Assembly (NCBI GenBank): GCA_902765305.1
Contig: CACWZI010000077.1
Span: 1 to 49,261, forward strand
Source: an uncultured Eubacteriales bacterium
GTDB lineage: Bacteria; Bacillota; Clostridia; Christensenellales; Aristaeellaceae
Direction of reading: 5' to 3'
DNA: 49,261 bases
Position numbers and translations under genes: made by a program. Below the pieces are notes generated by a model. It saw only the letters and a program-made list of their open reading frames with translations. It was not told where the DNA came from and searched no databases. Of this stretch, positions 7,769-23,567 are shown in pieces (the stretch's first letter is position 1; every line of letters starts with the position of its first letter).

Positions 7769-10171
7769 ATGCAGTACGGATACTTTGACGAGGCCCATCG
7801 GGAATACGTGATCACCCGACCGGATACGCCCCAGCCGTGGGCGAACTACCTGGGCTCCCCGGAATACGGCGCGCTCATCTCGAATAACGCCGGCGGCTAC
7901 AGCTTTGCCCGTTCCGGAGCCAACGGGCGCATACTGCGTTACGTGTTCAACCAGTTCGACCAGCCCGGGCGCTACATCTATATCCGGGACAACGCCGACG
8001 GCGATTTCTGGTCCGCCAGCTGGCAGCCCGTGGGCAAGGACCTGGACGCCTACGCCTGCCAGTGCCGCCACGGCCTGGGCTACACCCGGCTCACCGCCGA
8101 CTATCGGGGTATCCACAGCGAGGCGCTGTACTACGTGCCCCTGGGCGCCACCCACGAGGTCTGGGCGCTGACGGTGGAAAACCGCAGCGAAACAAAGCGC
8201 GCGCTGACGCTGACCGGCTACGCGGAATTCACCAGCCACCCCAACTACGAGCAGGACCAGGTCAACCTCCAGTATTCCCAGTTCATCACCCGCACGCTGT
8301 ACGACGAGGGCCGCATCCGCCAGCAGATCAACGGCAACCTGGACAAGCAGCCCGGCATCAACGGCGACGCCGTCACCGAGCGCTTCTTCGGCCTGGTCGG
8401 GACGGAGACCGCCTCCTGGTGTGGCGACAAGGCTGGCTTCCTCGGCCCCTATCGCCAGTACGGCAACCCCATCGGCGTGGAACGGGGCGACCTGGGCAAC
8501 CTGTCCAACTACAACGGCAACAGCTGCGGCGCGCTTTCCGCCGTCGTCGAGCTGGCGCCCGGCGAGGCCGTGACCGTCGCCTTCCTGCTGGGCCAGGTCG
8601 CAAGCGCCGAAAGCGCGGCGATCATGGCGCGGTATGCCGATCCGAAGCCGCTGGTCGATCGCGAGCTCAAGGCCCTGAAGGACGACTGGGCCCGGCGCCT
8701 CTCCGCCCTCAGGGTGAAGACCCCCTGCCCCGAATTCGACACGATGGTCAACACCTGGAACGCCTACAACTGCTTCATGACCTTCATCTGGTCCCGGGCG
8801 GCCTCGTTTATATACTGCGGGCTGCGCAACGGCTACGGCTATCGGGATACCGTGCAGGACATCCAGGGCGTCATCCACCTGGCCCCGGAGATGGCGAAGG
8901 AGAAGATCCGCTTCATGCTCTCCGCCCAGGTGCACCACGGCGGCGGCTTGCCGCTGGTGAAGTTCACCCACGACGCCGGCCACGAGGACACCCCGGAGGA
9001 CGCCAGCTACGTGAAGGAGACGGGCCACCCCTCCTACCGCGCCGACGACGCGCTGTGGCTGTTCCCGACGGTCTACAAGTACATCGCGGAATCCGGCGAC
9101 ACCGCGTTCCTGGACGAGGTGATCCCCTTCGCCAATAAGGACGAGGGCAGCGTCTACGAGCACCTGAAGCGGGCGCTGGACTTCTCGATGAAGCATCTGG
9201 GCCCCCACGGCCTGCCCGCCGGGCTGTACGCCGACTGGAACGACTGCCTGCGGCTGGGCGCGAACGGGGAATCCACCTTCGTGGCCCTGCAGTACTATTA
9301 CGCCTTCACCGTACTGCGCCGCTTCTCTGAGGAAAAGCGGGACGGCGAATACCTGGCCTGGCTGGAGGCCGAGCAGCGGGCCTTTGGCGAAAAGCTCCAG
9401 GCGCTGTGCTGGGACGGGGATCGCTTCATCCGCGGCTTCACCGAGGCGGGCGAGACCATCGGCGCGGGCAGCGCGCCGGAGGCGAACCTCTGGCTCAATC
9501 CCCAGAGCTGGTCGGTCATCAGCGGCCTGGCCGACGCAGCGCAGGCAAGCGCCGCGATGGACCAGGTTTGGAACCGGCTGAACACCGCCTACGGCGCGGT
9601 GCTGATGGACCCGCCCTACCACGCCCACGCCTTCGACGGCGCGCTGGCCGTGATCTTCAACCAGGGCGTCAAGGAAAACGCCGGCATCTTCTCCCAGTCC
9701 CAGGGCTGGGTGATCCTGGCCGAGGCGCTGCTGGGCCACGGCGAGCGGGCCTTCGCCTACTTCGCGGAAAACGCCCCCGCCATGCAGAACGACCGGGCAG
9801 AGATCCGCGGCATCGAGCCCTACTGCTACGGCCAGTTCACCGAGGGCCCCGCCAGCCCGCGCCACGGCCGCTCCCACGTCCACTGGCTCACCGGCACGGC
9901 CTCCACGGTCATGGTCGGCTGCGTGGAGGGCATACTGGGGCTGCGCCCCGACCTGCACGGCATCAAAATCGCCCCGTCCATCCCGAAGGACTGGAAAGAG
10001 CTTGAAATTGAAAAGACCTTCCGCGGCCGCCGGCTGCACATCCGGGTGGAAAACCCGAACGGCAGGGAATCCGGCTGCGCGACGATGACCGTCAACGGAA
10101 AGGCCGTCGAGGGCAACACCATCCCCGAGGAGATGCTGAGCGCGGAGACGGAGATTTTGGTGGTGATGTAG
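7769..10171 (+). CDS. GH94 beta-disaccharide phosphorylase
   Basis: An 800-residue intracellular enzyme that should cleave a beta-linked disaccharide with phosphate, giving a sugar 1-phosphate and the second sugar. The start (YGYFDEAHREYVITRP), the WNAYNCF region, the GYRDTVQD segment and the YADWNDC motif (residues 487-493, containing the family's general-acid aspartate) are typical of GH94. Length equals that of cellobiose and chitobiose phosphorylases. Wording of the N-terminal third is closest, from memory, to N,N'-diacetylchitobiose phosphorylase, but middle regions differ, so cellobiose, laminaribiose, cellobionate or chitobiose remain possible. No signal peptide. It has its own promoter and AGGAGG site and stands alone between repeat clusters, without a sugar transporter beside it. 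Confidence 0.9.
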   Translation: MQYGYFDEAHREYVITRPDTPQPWANYLGSPEYGALISNNAGGYSFARSGANGRILRYVFNQFDQPGRYIYIRDNADGDFWSASWQPVGKDLDAYACQCRHGLGYTRLTADYRGIHSEALYYVPLGATHEVWALTVENRSETKRALTLTGYAEFTSHPNYEQDQVNLQYSQFITRTLYDEGRIRQQINGNLDKQPGINGDAVTERFFGLVGTETASWCGDKAGFLGPYRQYGNPIGVERGDLGNLSNYNGNSCGALSAVVELAPGEAVTVAFLLGQVASAESAAIMARYADPKPLVDRELKALKDDWARRLSALRVKTPCPEFDTMVNTWNAYNCFMTFIWSRAASFIYCGLRNGYGYRDTVQDIQGVIHLAPEMAKEKIRFMLSAQVHHGGGLPLVKFTHDAGHEDTPEDASYVKETGHPSYRADDALWLFPTVYKYIAESGDTAFLDEVIPFANKDEGSVYEHLKRALDFSMKHLGPHGLPAGLYADWNDCLRLGANGESTFVALQYYYAFTVLRRFSEEKRDGEYLAWLEAEQRAFGEKLQALCWDGDRFIRGFTEAGETIGAGSAPEANLWLNPQSWSVISGLADAAQASAAMDQVWNRLNTAYGAVLMDPPYHAHAFDGALAVIFNQGVKENAGIFSQSQGWVILAEALLGHGERAFAYFAENAPAMQNDRAEIRGIEPYCYGQFTEGPASPRHGRSHVHWLTGTASTVMVGCVEGILGLRPDLHGIKIAPSIPKDWKELEIEKTFRGRRLHIRVENPNGRESGCATMTVNGKAVEGNTIPEEMLSAETEILVVM

Positions 10172-19199: not shown

Positions 19200-19259
19200 A
19201 CAATAAGGTAAATGCGGTATTGTCTGCGCATTATCGATCCTTTCAAAAGGGGTATGTCT

Positions 19260-22200
19260 ATGGAGACCAACAATCAAACCCGGCTGGGCGCGCGGCTGTC
19301 GCCCTTCAACGCCTGGGCGTTCGCGCTGGGCACGGCGGTGGGCTGGGGCTCGCTGGTGGTGACGGCGAACAGCTATCTCGGGCAGGCCGGACCGATGGGC
19401 AGCGTATTGGGCATCGTGCTGGGCACGCTGATCATGCTGTTCATCGGCCGGAACTACAGTTACATGATGCAGGTCTTTCCCGACGCCGGCGGCGCCTATA
19501 CCTACAGCCGCAAGGTCTTCGGCTACGACCACGGCTTTCTGACCGGCTGGTTTTTGACGCTGACCTACCTGGCGGTGCTGTGGGCCAACGCCACGTCGAT
19601 CCCCCTGTTCACCCGCTACTTCCTGGGCGGGGTGCTTCAGATCGGGAAGATGTACACCATATTCGGCTATGACGTCTACCTCGGCGAGACCGTGGTCACC
19701 ATCGCGGTGATCCTGGCCACGGCCTATCTGTGCACCCACAGCCACAAGCTGACCGTGGGGCTGATGACCGGCCTGGTCTGCGTGTTCTGTGGGGGAATCG
19801 TCGCCGTGTTCGTCGCGGCGATGCTCGGTTTGAAGATACCCCTCGAGCCCCGCACTATTCCCGACGCCGGCGTCCTGGGACAGATCGTCAAGATCGCGGT
19901 CATCAGCCCCTGGGCCTTCATCGGCTTCGAGAGCATCTCCCACCGCACCGAGGAGTTCGCCTTCCCCCACAGGAAGATCTTCCGGGTGATGGTGGCGGCG
20001 CTGATCGCCACGGGGCTGCTGTACGCCCTGGTCACGCTGCTGTCCGTCACCGCCTACCCGGACCGCTACGGCTCCTGGCTGGAATACATCCGGGATCGGG
20101 GCAACCTGTCGGGCATCGAGGCCGTGCCGGCCTTCTACGCCGCCCACCACTACCTGGGCGAGGGCGGCGTGTGGATACTGATGGCGTCGCTGATGGCACT
20201 GATACTGACCTCCCTCATCGGCAACACCACCTGCCTGAGCCGCCTGTTCTACGCCCAGAGCCTGGACGGCATACTGCCCAAGAAGATCTCCGAGCTCAAC
20301 AAACATGGCGTGCCCGCCAACGCCATGATGCTGATCGCGGCGGTGTCGTCGGTGGTGCCCTTCGTGGGCCGCACGGCCATCGGCTGGATCGTGGACGTCA
20401 CCACCATCGGCGCCACGCTGATCTACGGCTTCGTGTCGGCCGCGGCCTACAAGACGGCGAAGAACCGCAGGGACAAGGTGGAGAAGTGGACCGGCCTGAT
20501 CGGCCTGGGGCTGATGATCGCCTTCGGCCTGTACATACTGCTGCCGAACCTGGTCTCCTACGGCTCGATGGAGCCCGAGACCTATTTCCTGTTCGTGGTG
20601 TGGAGCGTCATGGGCTTCCTGTTCTTCCGCGCCATACTGCGCAACGACAGGGAAAAGCGGTTCGGAGGCTCGGTGGTGGTGTGGATCGCGCTGCTGTCGC
20701 TGGTGCTGCTGATCAGCCTGATCTGGATGCGCCAGTCGATGATCGTGGCCAACGACCAGATGCTGGGCAGCATCAAGGCCTACTACGCCGAGATCGGCGA
20801 CGCCACCCGCATGGCCGACGAGGCCTATATCGAACAGCAGGCCAACTGGCTGGACACCCAGAACTCCCGCACGCTGCTGATGGCCATCGTCATGTTTGCC
20901 ATCGCCGTAGGCATGATGTTCTCGAACCACGCCTACCTGAGCCGGCGGGCGAACGAGAGCGAGCAGGCGGCCAACGTCGACCCGATGACCGGCGTGAAGA
21001 GCAAGCACGCCTTCCTGAAGAAGGAGCGGGACATCGACGGAACCATCTCAGACGGCACCGTCAAGGATTTCGCCATAGCGGTCTGCGACGTGAACGGTCT
21101 GAAAAAGATCAACGATACCCTCGGCCACAAGGCCGGGGACGAATACATCTGCAAGGCCTCGAAGCTGATTAGCGAAATCTTCAAGCACAGCCCCGTCTAC
21201 CGCACCGGCGGCGACGAATTCGTGGTCGTACTCACGGACCGGGATTACGCCGTGCGCAAGGAACTGATGAAGGTGCTGCACGACCGCTCCGTGGATCACA
21301 TCTCCACCGAGGGCGTGGTGGTATCCGGCGGCATTTCCGACTTCGCCAAGGGCGAGGACGTCAGCTTCCACCAGGTGTTCGAGCGCGCGGACGCGCTGAT
21401 GTATGAAGAAAAGCAACTGCTGAAGGGCCTGGGCTCCATCAGCCGGGACGAGGACCCCGAGGAGGAAAAGCCCGGCGACGAGGCCTCCGTGCTCAACGTG
21501 CGCAAGAAGGTGCTGGTGGTCGAGGACGAGGCGGTCAACCGGATGATGCTGGGCAACGTCATCGAAGCCGATTACGACGTGCTCTACGCCGAGGACGGCA
21601 TCGAGGCCATGCACCTGATCGAAGCCAACAAGGGCGACCTGGCGCTGCTGCTGCTGGATCTGCAGATGCCCCGCATGAACGGCATGGAGGTCCTCAAGGC
21701 CGTCAAAGCGGACAAGGACCTGCGGCAGCTGCCCATCATCGTGCTCACCGCCGATCAGAACGCGGAGCTGGAATGCCTGAAAATCGGAGCCGTGGATTTC
21801 ATACCGAAGCCCTACCCCGCCTGGGAGATCGTCAAGGCCCGGGTGGACCGTTGCGTGGAGCTGTCCGAGAGCCGGGAGACCATCAAATCCACGGAGCGCG
21901 ACGGCCTGACCCGGCTTTACAACATCGACTACTTCCTGCGCTACGTCAACCTGTACGACCAGCGCTACCCCGAGATGGCCATGGACGCCGTGGTGGTGGA
22001 CATCAACCAGTTCCACATGCTCAACGAGCGCTACGGCAAGCACTATGCCGACGATATTCTGCGAAAGATCGGCGAGCGCATTCGCCACGCGGCCCGCAAG
22101 ATGGGCGGCGTGGGCTGCCGCCAGGGGGCCGACACCTTCCTGCTGTACTGCCCCTTCCACGAGGATTATTCCCCGCTGATGGAGCAGCTGGCCGCGGACG

Positions 22201-23567
22201 TGGCCGTGGACAACAGCGCCGCGGACCGGGTGCGCCTGCGCATGGGCGTCTATCCCCATGTGGACAAGACGCTGGACATCGAGCGCCGCTTCGACCGAGC
22301 CAGGATGGCCGCCGATTCGGTCAAGAGCGGCCAGGCCCGGGCCATCGGCATCTACGACGCGAAGCTGCACGAGGCCGCGCTGTTCCGCGACCGGCTGCTG
22401 GAGGACTTCCACAGCTCTGTGGAAAACCGGCGCTTCAAGGTCTACTTCCAGCCCAAGTTTGACATCCGGCCCGACAAGCCGGTGCTCTCCAGCGCCGAGG
22501 CGCTGGTGCGCTGGGATCACCCCGAGCTGGGCCTGATCAGCCCGATGGTGTTCATACCGCTGCTGGAGGAGAGCGGCATGATACTGGAGCTGGACCGCTT
22601 CGTCTGGCGCGAGGCCGCCGCGCGCATCCGCCTGTGGAAGGACAAGTACGGCTTCGCCGTGCCCGTGTCCGTGAACGTGTCCAGGATCGACATGCTGAAC
22701 CCGAACCTGAAGGGCATATTCAACGAGATCCTGGAAGCCTGCGACCTGGACACCGAGGACTTCATGCTGGAGATCACCGAGTCCGCCTACACCCGCGAAT
22801 CCGACCAGGTGCTGTCCACCGCCCGGGAGCTGCGGGGCATGGGGATGGGCTTCCGCATCGAGATGGACGACTTCGGCACCGGCTATTCCTCGCTGGGCAT
22901 GCTGACCAAGCTGCCCATCGACGCGCTGAAGCTGGACATGTCCTTCGTGCGCAGCGCCTTCGGGGAGAGGCGGGACGTGCGCATGATCGAGCTGATCATC
23001 GACATCGCCGAATACCTGCGGGTGCCCGTGGTGGCCGAGGGCGTGGAGACCGAGGAACAGCTGCTGGCGCTGAAGGCGCTGGGCTGCGATTACGTGCAGG
23101 GCTATTACTTCTCCAAGCCGGTGCCCGCCGAGGCGTTTGAGCGCTTCCTGGTGGAGCGCGGCAGGGACAGCGCCGAAATCAGCCCCGAGGTGCGCACCCG
23201 CTTCATGGGCGCTTCCGACTTCCTGGACAGCGACTGCGAGCGCATCTACTACGTCGACACGCGCACCGATTGCTACCTGGAGTTCTACAGGGGCTCCCGT
23301 GGCGTGCTGGAGATCCGCCCCGGCGGCACTGACTTTTTCCGCGACGCCCCCATGAAGCTGCTGGACGGCGTGGCCGAGGAGGACGCCGAAAGGGTTCGTG
23401 ACGCGCTGCAAAAGTGCCGCCTCACTCCGGCGTCCTCCGGCGAGGCCGAGACCGTGACGACCTATCGCTGCCTGCGCGGCGGCGTGCTGAAGCCCTGCCG
23501 ACTGGTGACGATCCCCGCCCGCGACGACGACGGCCACCACATCGTGATCGGCGTGAAGGCGGATTAA
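19260..23567 (+). CDS. APC-family permease fused to GGDEF-receiver-GGDEF-EAL cyclic-di-GMP enzyme
   Basis: A 1,435-residue fusion. I chose ATG 19260 because AAAAGGGG lies about seven bases upstream; ATG 19254 would be too close. Residues about 12-460 form a 12-helix APC permease (GWG at 28-30; SPWAFIGFES), followed by two more helices (about 470-492 and 537-555) around a 45-residue loop. Then come a GGDEF domain with intact active site (650-654), a receiver with Asp800 (LDLQMPRMNG), a second GGDEF with degenerate GADTF (956-960), an EAL domain with EAL (1080-1082), DDFGTG and EGVE motifs intact, and about 125 C-terminal residues of unknown type. It can plausibly make and degrade cyclic di-GMP in response to a transported or bound solute and to phosphorylation. 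The divergent kinases are candidate phospho-donors. The architecture is certain; its substrate and net activity are not. Confidence 0.92.
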   Translation: METNNQTRLGARLSPFNAWAFALGTAVGWGSLVVTANSYLGQAGPMGSVLGIVLGTLIMLFIGRNYSYMMQVFPDAGGAYTYSRKVFGYDHGFLTGWFLTLTYLAVLWANATSIPLFTRYFLGGVLQIGKMYTIFGYDVYLGETVVTIAVILATAYLCTHSHKLTVGLMTGLVCVFCGGIVAVFVAAMLGLKIPLEPRTIPDAGVLGQIVKIAVISPWAFIGFESISHRTEEFAFPHRKIFRVMVAALIATGLLYALVTLLSVTAYPDRYGSWLEYIRDRGNLSGIEAVPAFYAAHHYLGEGGVWILMASLMALILTSLIGNTTCLSRLFYAQSLDGILPKKISELNKHGVPANAMMLIAAVSSVVPFVGRTAIGWIVDVTTIGATLIYGFVSAAAYKTAKNRRDKVEKWTGLIGLGLMIAFGLYILLPNLVSYGSMEPETYFLFVVWSVMGFLFFRAILRNDREKRFGGSVVVWIALLSLVLLISLIWMRQSMIVANDQMLGSIKAYYAEIGDATRMADEAYIEQQANWLDTQNSRTLLMAIVMFAIAVGMMFSNHAYLSRRANESEQAANVDPMTGVKSKHAFLKKERDIDGTISDGTVKDFAIAVCDVNGLKKINDTLGHKAGDEYICKASKLISEIFKHSPVYRTGGDEFVVVLTDRDYAVRKELMKVLHDRSVDHISTEGVVVSGGISDFAKGEDVSFHQVFERADALMYEEKQLLKGLGSISRDEDPEEEKPGDEASVLNVRKKVLVVEDEAVNRMMLGNVIEADYDVLYAEDGIEAMHLIEANKGDLALLLLDLQMPRMNGMEVLKAVKADKDLRQLPIIVLTADQNAELECLKIGAVDFIPKPYPAWEIVKARVDRCVELSESRETIKSTERDGLTRLYNIDYFLRYVNLYDQRYPEMAMDAVVVDINQFHMLNERYGKHYADDILRKIGERIRHAARKMGGVGCRQGADTFLLYCPFHEDYSPLMEQLAADVAVDNSAADRVRLRMGVYPHVDKTLDIERRFDRARMAADSVKSGQARAIGIYDAKLHEAALFRDRLLEDFHSSVENRRFKVYFQPKFDIRPDKPVLSSAEALVRWDHPELGLISPMVFIPLLEESGMILELDRFVWREAAARIRLWKDKYGFAVPVSVNVSRIDMLNPNLKGIFNEILEACDLDTEDFMLEITESAYTRESDQVLSTARELRGMGMGFRIEMDDFGTGYSSLGMLTKLPIDALKLDMSFVRSAFGERRDVRMIELIIDIAEYLRVPVVAEGVETEEQLLALKALGCDYVQGYYFSKPVPAEAFERFLVERGRDSAEISPEVRTRFMGASDFLDSDCERIYYVDTRTDCYLEFYRGSRGVLEIRPGGTDFFRDAPMKLLDGVAEEDAERVRDALQKCRLTPASSGEAETVTTYRCLRGGVLKPCRLVTIPARDDDGHHIVIGVKAD

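Follow-up and report, generated by a model that had tools for sequence, protein, structure and literature searches.

A candidate amino-acid-type receptor made from an APC permease and cyclic di-GMP enzymes in gut bacteria

What does a permease do at the head of a protein that could both make and break down cyclic di-GMP? The question is raised by a gene in a stretch of 49,261 nucleotides from an uncultured Eubacteriales bacterium of the Aristaeellaceae (contig CACWZI010000077.1, assembly GCA_902765305.1), the whole of which we call the window. An earlier note, made from the sequence alone, had described one 1,435-residue protein coupling an APC permease to synthesis and breakdown of cyclic di-GMP, with a receiver between the two. 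We found that this protein is a member of a large family of permease-headed receptors, which did not form part of that earlier finding. On balance we favor the reading that a permease has here been turned into an amino-acid-type receptor, which would act directly on the synthesis of cyclic di-GMP and, by way of a phosphorelay, on its breakdown.

Architecture of the protein and conservation of its domains

The gene is a single unbroken frame, and Pfam finds the APC, GGDEF, receiver, and EAL matches within it (Table 1), so that the earlier description stood, including the domain set and the exact positions of the motifs GGDEF (650-654), GADTF (956-960), and EAL (1080). Another ATG of the same open frame lies upstream, at 19212; a start there is disfavored, because the Shine-Dalgarno-like AAAAGGGG precedes the ATG at 19260 instead.

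Table 1. Positions of the gene, its parts, and the neighboring kinase genes in the window
Feature	Position	Strand	Basis or remark
Whole gene: APC permease-2TM-GGDEF-REC-GGDEF*-EAL-C-terminal domain (2TM, two further transmembrane helices; REC, receiver; GGDEF*, degenerate GGDEF)	19260..23567	+	1,435 residues; 81 different frames with the same layout
Shine-Dalgarno-like AAAAGGGG	19245..19252	+	7 bases ahead of ATG; sequence
AA_permease_2 domain, residues 13-428, LeuT/APC fold	19296..20543	+	Pfam, AlphaFold2 model, Foldseek
Two further helices (471-511, 518-565): putative TM13, extracellular helical hairpin, and TM14 into the GGDEF linker	20670..20954	+	AlphaFold2, predicted topology; common to permease-kinases
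Helical linker, N556 to D574 of GGDEF1	20928..20978	+	Two lengths in 86 rows, 7 residues apart
GGDEF1 (571-719), GGDEF at 650-654, no RxxD I-site	20970..21416	+	Pfam; alignment of 81
Receiver domain (751-859), phospho-acceptor D800 with D756, T830, K850	21510..21836	+	Pfam; alignment of 81
GGDEF2 (~880-1023), degenerate GADTF 956-960	21897..22328	+	Profile match 4e-15; alignment of 81
EAL phosphodiesterase domain (1050-1287) with its full catalytic set	22407..23120	+	Pfam; alignment of 81
C-terminal domain (1303-1435)	23166..23564	+	Nothing in Pfam up to E 10; occurs in 64 of 81 relatives
Divergent neighbor: PAS-hybrid histidine kinase, two receivers, 972 residues	15948..18866	-	Candidate phosphate source
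Second permease receptor: APC permease-2TM-HisKA-HATPase-REC, 934 residues	13147..15951	-	Pfam
Further hybrid histidine kinase, two receivers, 841 residues	10625..13150	-	Domain scan

We searched for relatives in 60 related genomes, 59 of which gave some match, and in a contig collection of 84,980 species, where 161 stretches encode a relative and the best 80 of the 161 were kept; every frame of at least 90 residues in the retrieved loci was scored with domain profiles. Permease, receiver, and EAL stand together in 94 frames, 81 of them different after exact duplicates were dropped (window included), and full-length relatives are many, with best-segment identities of 53% to 86%. The architecture search that the earlier note had proposed thus yielded a well-populated layout, although the 81 frames do not amount to 81 independent events, because near-identical rows remain (e.g., L067/L069 and L063/L124). 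Four of the frames are shorter than 1,300 residues, cut either by a contig end or by a stop within the permease; such a stop also interrupts at least one further frame (L027/L060). The window's own assembly is fragmented (177 contigs), and some relatives show in-frame stops or splits, as would be expected if the gene were an assembly chimera or a fused pseudogene. The number of different frames, their range of identities, and the retention of catalytic residues make such an artefact a negligible prospect, and a chimera in particular is ruled out by the same layout in 81 different frames.

The functions of the individual positions in the GGDEF, EAL, and receiver domains are presumably those generally known for these families. 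The first GGDEF domain (GGDEF1) has the motif and the metal and substrate residues of a diguanylate cyclase: D610, N618, D619, G651, D652, and E653 are kept in 81/81 frames, with a single R for G650 and a single Y for F654. Where an RxxD I-site would stand, all 81 have H643-S644-P645; therefore, product inhibition through this site is not expected. The EAL catalytic set (EAL, N, E, DD, K, E, Q) is present in 81/81, or in 80 plus one row truncated at the last sites. As the earlier note had supposed, both domains look active by their residues in the alignment of 81. The receiver has the residues of a response regulator in every frame (E or D at 755, D756, D800, T830, K850). In the second GGDEF domain (GGDEF2), D958 and F960 are invariant and the GGDEF motif itself is lost; its description as a relic agrees with its degeneracy both here and in the stand-alone receiver-GGDEF-EAL relatives examined.

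The C-terminal domain, absent from 17 of the 81 frames, has no match in Pfam up to an E value of 10 and resembles PAS merely by the order of its helices and strands; it is possibly an undescribed PAS-like family. Domains of this type (~130 residues, window 23166-23564) stand in tandem before or behind other outputs in L039, L042, L116, and L128.

The permease part is assigned by Pfam to AA_permease_2 and AA_permease, not to SLC5 (SSF). It matches AA_permease_2 with 104.9 bits against a cut-off of 27 (E 6e-30, whole protein), and the profile was matched by 63 of 63 aligned rows of relatives. Structure prediction, likewise proposed in the earlier note, gave a confident model for residues 1-566 (AlphaFold2, mean pLDDT 88.9, pTM 0.89; alignment A1 of 63 of 82 permease pieces, the window's own two being re-cut or kept) and failed to do so for the output core (pTM 0.43). 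The permease model has a LeuT-type fold, the top Foldseek matches being AdiC, y+LAT1, and GkApcT (best of each, E < 1e-12); among solved structures, GkApcT and the CAT transporters are closest in sequence. Residues 469-566 gave no significant match in Pfam, whose inclusion of a STAC model was unchecked, and form two long helices in the model.

A permease that may bind without transporting

The next question is whether the permease part still acts as a carrier. The TM1 residues with which GkApcT binds the carboxylate map to W29 and G30 (after G28), and its TM6 contacts to W218, A219, and I221 (alignment; GkApcT residues from PMC5803215). In 111 permease rows, gaps apart, G28, W29, G30, N110, W218, A219, and E224 show no substitution at all, while I221 is V in seven of eight kinase rows and in one other row. 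Two residues characteristic of a proton-coupled carrier of the GkApcT type, the acidic residue of TM3 and the lysine of TM5, were not found: the position of Glu115 is T, I, V, or S and never acidic, and the TM5 stretch has no K or R in 109/111 rows, the site of Lys191 being placed by a gapped alignment. In GkApcT, Glu115 serves proton coupling, and Lys191 is required for transport and dispensable for binding, since mutants at this site keep alanine binding, whereas their transport is lost with Ala or Arg and lowered with Asn (PMC5803215). Judging from these alignments, the motifs for amino-acid binding are retained in the permease, and the two residues that GkApcT needs for transport are missing. 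The same losses speak against a true transceptor, in which the permease would still transport and GGDEF1 would read the transport cycle rather than mere binding. The APC fold of the model and the intact binding motifs would suit such a protein, and CbrA, a studied transporter-kinase, has been termed a transceptor and is discussed as a transporter (PMC13022988); we regard it as a serious but rather unlikely alternative.

The pocket also varies in an ordered way. Among 78 fused rows, 32 have T102/N322 (the window's type), 40 have I or V102 with M322, and six are otherwise; one change on the tree suffices for the N/M switch at 322, a site aligned to position 321 of GkApcT, which limits substrate size there (PMC5803215). 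These two co-varying pocket types, the binding motifs kept across outputs, and the restricted linker lengths described below all argue against a permease that is a mere anchor placing a bifunctional enzyme at the membrane. The lack of a known ligand speaks for an anchor, but we consider this explanation very improbable.

A census of AA_permease_2 gave a similar picture. The own genome of the window (93% complete; AA_permease_2 only) has four matches, three in frames with output domains and one in a 551-residue permease with the two further helices and no output (contig C106:2412-3653, locus L008:1360-3012). Frames of similar size (541-597 residues) recur across many genomes of the genus, and this protein could be a sensor that works with a partner encoded separately, or else a carrier whose tail is unusual. 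The 28 genomes of the genus hold 62 matches in frames of at least 700 residues, 7 of ordinary size (446-499 residues), and 19 of 506-666 residues, counts that exclude 9 fragments and 3 second stretches, as well as 2 copies in which the fused gene is split or broken. In 24 genomes from other families of the order, one of 14 full-length matches lies in a frame of at least 700 residues (counted by hand, one fragment left out); eight genomes from other genera of the family are in neither count.

Spacing, module exchange, and spread

The distances between domains fall into two kinds. The stretch from N556, near the end of TM14, to the start of GGDEF1 measures 25 residues in 62 rows and 18 in another 24 (the window's class), the only two values in 86 rows, and a separate 81-row alignment gave the same two classes (55 and 26 rows), again 7 apart. 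Eight directly fused kinases have 33 residues from N556 to the phospho-histidine block. Receiver and GGDEF2 are separated by 31 residues in 81/81, whereas GGDEF1 and the receiver are joined by at least 12 different lengths, one of which is shared by 53/81. That the linker behind TM14 has no other insertions fits a helix obliged to keep its register. We read this pattern as tight coupling within permease-GGDEF1 and within receiver-GGDEF2-EAL, with a looser joint between these two units.

The permease-2TM module is seen with several outputs. In 111 rows (frames with fewer than 440 permease residues left out), it precedes the full core in 78, a PAS-like histidine kinase with receivers in 11, HisKA-HATPase-receivers in 8, GGDEF alone in 8, PAS-like-GGDEF in 2, and no output in 4; "PAS-like" is our own label for repeat domains that had no Pfam name here. 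This swapping of sensor and output is usual for receptors and, together with a module that also feeds kinases and has lost the GkApcT transport residues, it tells against reverse control, in which the level of cyclic di-GMP or phosphorylation would regulate transport in cis. A single chain carries all the parts for such control, and the nucleotide could be bound by GGDEF1 and EAL, yet we rate it as very improbable. A further class of permease-PAS-like-kinases (L160-L168, L170, and L172) measures 1,419-1,940 residues unless cut by a contig end, and several of its genes adjoin a PAS-like-GGDEF gene. In L038 and L129, the permease and the signaling part occupy overlapping separate frames, by natural split or frameshift.

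The REC-GGDEF-EAL parts of the fused proteins form one clade of 87 rows (support 100), of which 80 are permease-headed, 5 cut or split, and 2 PAS-like-headed, and 21 stand-alone response regulators fall outside it. The two PAS-like-headed cores (L039, the same gene as L116, and L128) nest at two places inside the clade. In locus L177 (G007), the unfused halves adjoin in the same order, as a 746-residue permease-GGDEF and a 741-residue REC-GGDEF-EAL protein; in L176 (G033), they are adjacent separate genes in reverse order. Considering the single core clade and the unfused halves side by side, the gene seems to have arisen when a permease-cyclase was fused to a response-regulator phosphodiesterase, and its sensor would have been exchanged at least twice.

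All but one of the 80 kept contigs are titled as metagenome-assembled genomes (MAGs) or as uncultured; the exception is L128, from Lachnospiraceae bacterium C6A11, where the core sits behind other sensor domains with no permease ahead. A tree of rpoB from 25 genomes (26 rows; frames chosen by similarity, no outside reference rows, and no rpoB from 2 of the 27 genomes searched) separates Clostridia, Erysipelotrichia, Coriobacteriia, and a Flexilinea/Chloroflexi pair as their titles predict. The output-core tree of the same 25 loci intermixes the hosts at short distances, with L085 (Chloroflexi) close to L117 (Erysipelotrichaceae), and therefore points to gene transfer between phyla. Errors in binning are the alternative: the L085 MAG has two rpoB genes, one of them (L085b) a very long branch in the tree, and the bin looks mixed. 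In every case the flanks have a lower G+C than the host's rpoB piece, by 0.6 to 8.0 points, which is a weak test of misbinning.

Neighboring kinases and the proposed signal path

If the receiver belongs to a phosphorelay, where would its phosphate come from? Flanks of 2.5 kb or more on each side are available for 45 fused loci, and in 16 of these a kinase lies no more than 1.6 kb away; among the 17 neighbor kinases, 14 share the strand of the fused gene and 6 have a permease at the head. Kinase midpoints number 17 in 111 adjoining 2-kb bins versus 7 in 195 farther bins (Fisher p 0.0006, the bins being non-independent). A histidine phosphotransfer (HPt) gene is near the fused gene in 11/81: directly beside it in L053, L054, L120, L029, L103, and L127, and within a run of REC-GGDEF-EAL, HPt, permease-kinase, and fused gene in L063, L070, L098, L100, and L124. 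HPt matches occur in 26 of the 28 genomes of the genus, and REC-GGDEF-EAL, HPt, and a permease frame stand in a row in at least 19 of them (by position; not every permease frame was checked as a kinase). The own genome has a cassette of this kind at C9:2580-6539, with permease-kinase-REC-REC, HPt, and REC-GGDEF-EAL.

Other sensory genes are found in the window itself, such as a dCache-HAMP-SpoIIE phosphatase sensor (373-2535), and an enzyme of the GH94 glycoside phosphorylase type lies among the sensor genes (7769-10168). As for targets of cyclic di-GMP, the own genome gave no match to PilZ or flagellin, and one MshEN pilus-type ATPase is the only effector found among those looked for. Searches for cyclic di-GMP riboswitches gave no match in the own genome and likewise none in control genomes.

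From these elements we propose the following path. At its conserved TM1/TM6 site, the APC domain would bind some small molecule, for which an amino acid is the likeliest candidate, probably with loss of transport. The conformational change would travel through TM13, the extracellular helical hairpin, and TM14 (predicted topology) into the fixed-length helix and GGDEF1, so gating synthesis. The receiver would obtain its phosphate from hybrid kinases, some of them permease-headed, presumably via an HPt protein, and, at its fixed spacing, could shift the degenerate GGDEF2 and thereby gate the EAL phosphodiesterase. The linker of variable length would let both halves act separately, and the target may be the MshEN pilus-type ATPase.

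Several observations weigh against this reading. The seven-residue step is a single event, because one change on the tree accounts for both linker lengths. The window has no HPt adjoining the gene, and the sole HPt match of its genome lies on contig C9, next to a different permease-kinase; more widely, 29 of the 45 flanked loci have no kinase inside 1.6 kb and 70/81 no HPt in the retrieved DNA, whose flanks are often short, and many genomes with more than one HPt do not suit a simple picture. The output-core model (alignment A2, 56 of 80 core pieces) has low overall confidence, so that it gives no reliable arrangement of the domains. The seven ordinary-sized permeases do occur in the genus and, since other APC carriers work differently from GkApcT, the lost GkApcT residues do not prove lost transport. 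With these points included, we still hold a receptor with direct control of synthesis and a phosphorelay to breakdown to be the probable reading.

The presence of relatives in many gut bacteria suggests a role for the permease as a plug-in sensor of nutrients. We put forward only tentatively, as somewhat short of an even chance, the wider idea of a gut-bacterial family in which a non-transporting APC permease acts twice on one messenger, on synthesis via a heptad-locked helix and on breakdown via permease-kinase, HPt, and the receiver of the same enzyme, and which has spread between phyla by gene transfer. If true, the protein would be a ratio or coincidence detector for nutrients, and our findings point to amino-acid-like nutrients feeding into cyclic di-GMP in rumen and gut bacteria.

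Relation to known systems

The conversion of a transporter fold into a receptor is, in our judgment, an open question with few worked examples. The family offers a natural series, with one permease module on kinases, on a cyclase, and on a cyclase-phosphodiesterase, with two linker lengths, two pocket types, and versions that are split or have other sensors; therefore, signal transfer from an APC fold can be tested by comparing the variants. The earlier note knew of no described system with this layout. For this domain set the statement holds, since our literature searches, which had most subscription papers outside their reach, found no APC permease fused to GGDEF/EAL among the papers listed. 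It does not extend to transporter fusions in general, as other transporter-kinase fusions have been published and SLC5-STAC-GGDEF is mentioned (PMC5715377). In the main text of a review on sensing in cyclic di-GMP networks, "permease" and "symporter" do not occur and "transporter" occurs once (PMC8846402), and an NRAMP-5TMR assembly was called the only one with a fused transporter in its set (PMC11109136).

The nearest parallels in arrangement are the SLC5-STAC kinases CbrA and CrbS, which also have an N-terminal domain of transporter fold on a signaling protein in one chain; STAC is described as the link from SLC5 to either a kinase or a GGDEF output (PMC5715377), and CbrA has been called a rare transceptor (PMC13022988). 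They differ in having SLC5 with 13 helices, STAC, and a kinase output, whereas the protein described here has an AA_permease_2 APC domain, two helices, and cyclase, receiver, and phosphodiesterase. Ks-Amt5 likewise uses an ammonium transporter domain as a sensor fused to a histidine kinase, but with the Amt fold, and its main text does not contain the words cyclase, diguanylate, or fusion (PMC5764959).

In fold, a further parallel is GerAB, a subunit of the spore germinant receptor, in which an APC-superfamily fold with a GkApcT-like pocket serves as an amino-acid sensor (PMC8617281); it is a separate subunit in a receptor complex, with no fused enzyme. GkApcT, CAT, LAT, and AdiC share the fold and the TM1/TM6 ligand motifs, but they are carriers, and Glu115 and Lys191 of GkApcT are unmatched in the permease receptors. 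On the output side, stand-alone REC-GGDEF-EAL regulators of the same genus are ~43-56% identical to the C-terminal half among the matches listed (not every frame having been checked for other domains) and share a degenerate GGDEF2 in the 21 rows examined, but have neither permease nor GGDEF1 ahead. Transporter domains fused to signaling outputs, such as SLC5-STAC, are thus already known; what appears new is an APC permease on a cyclase/phosphodiesterase.

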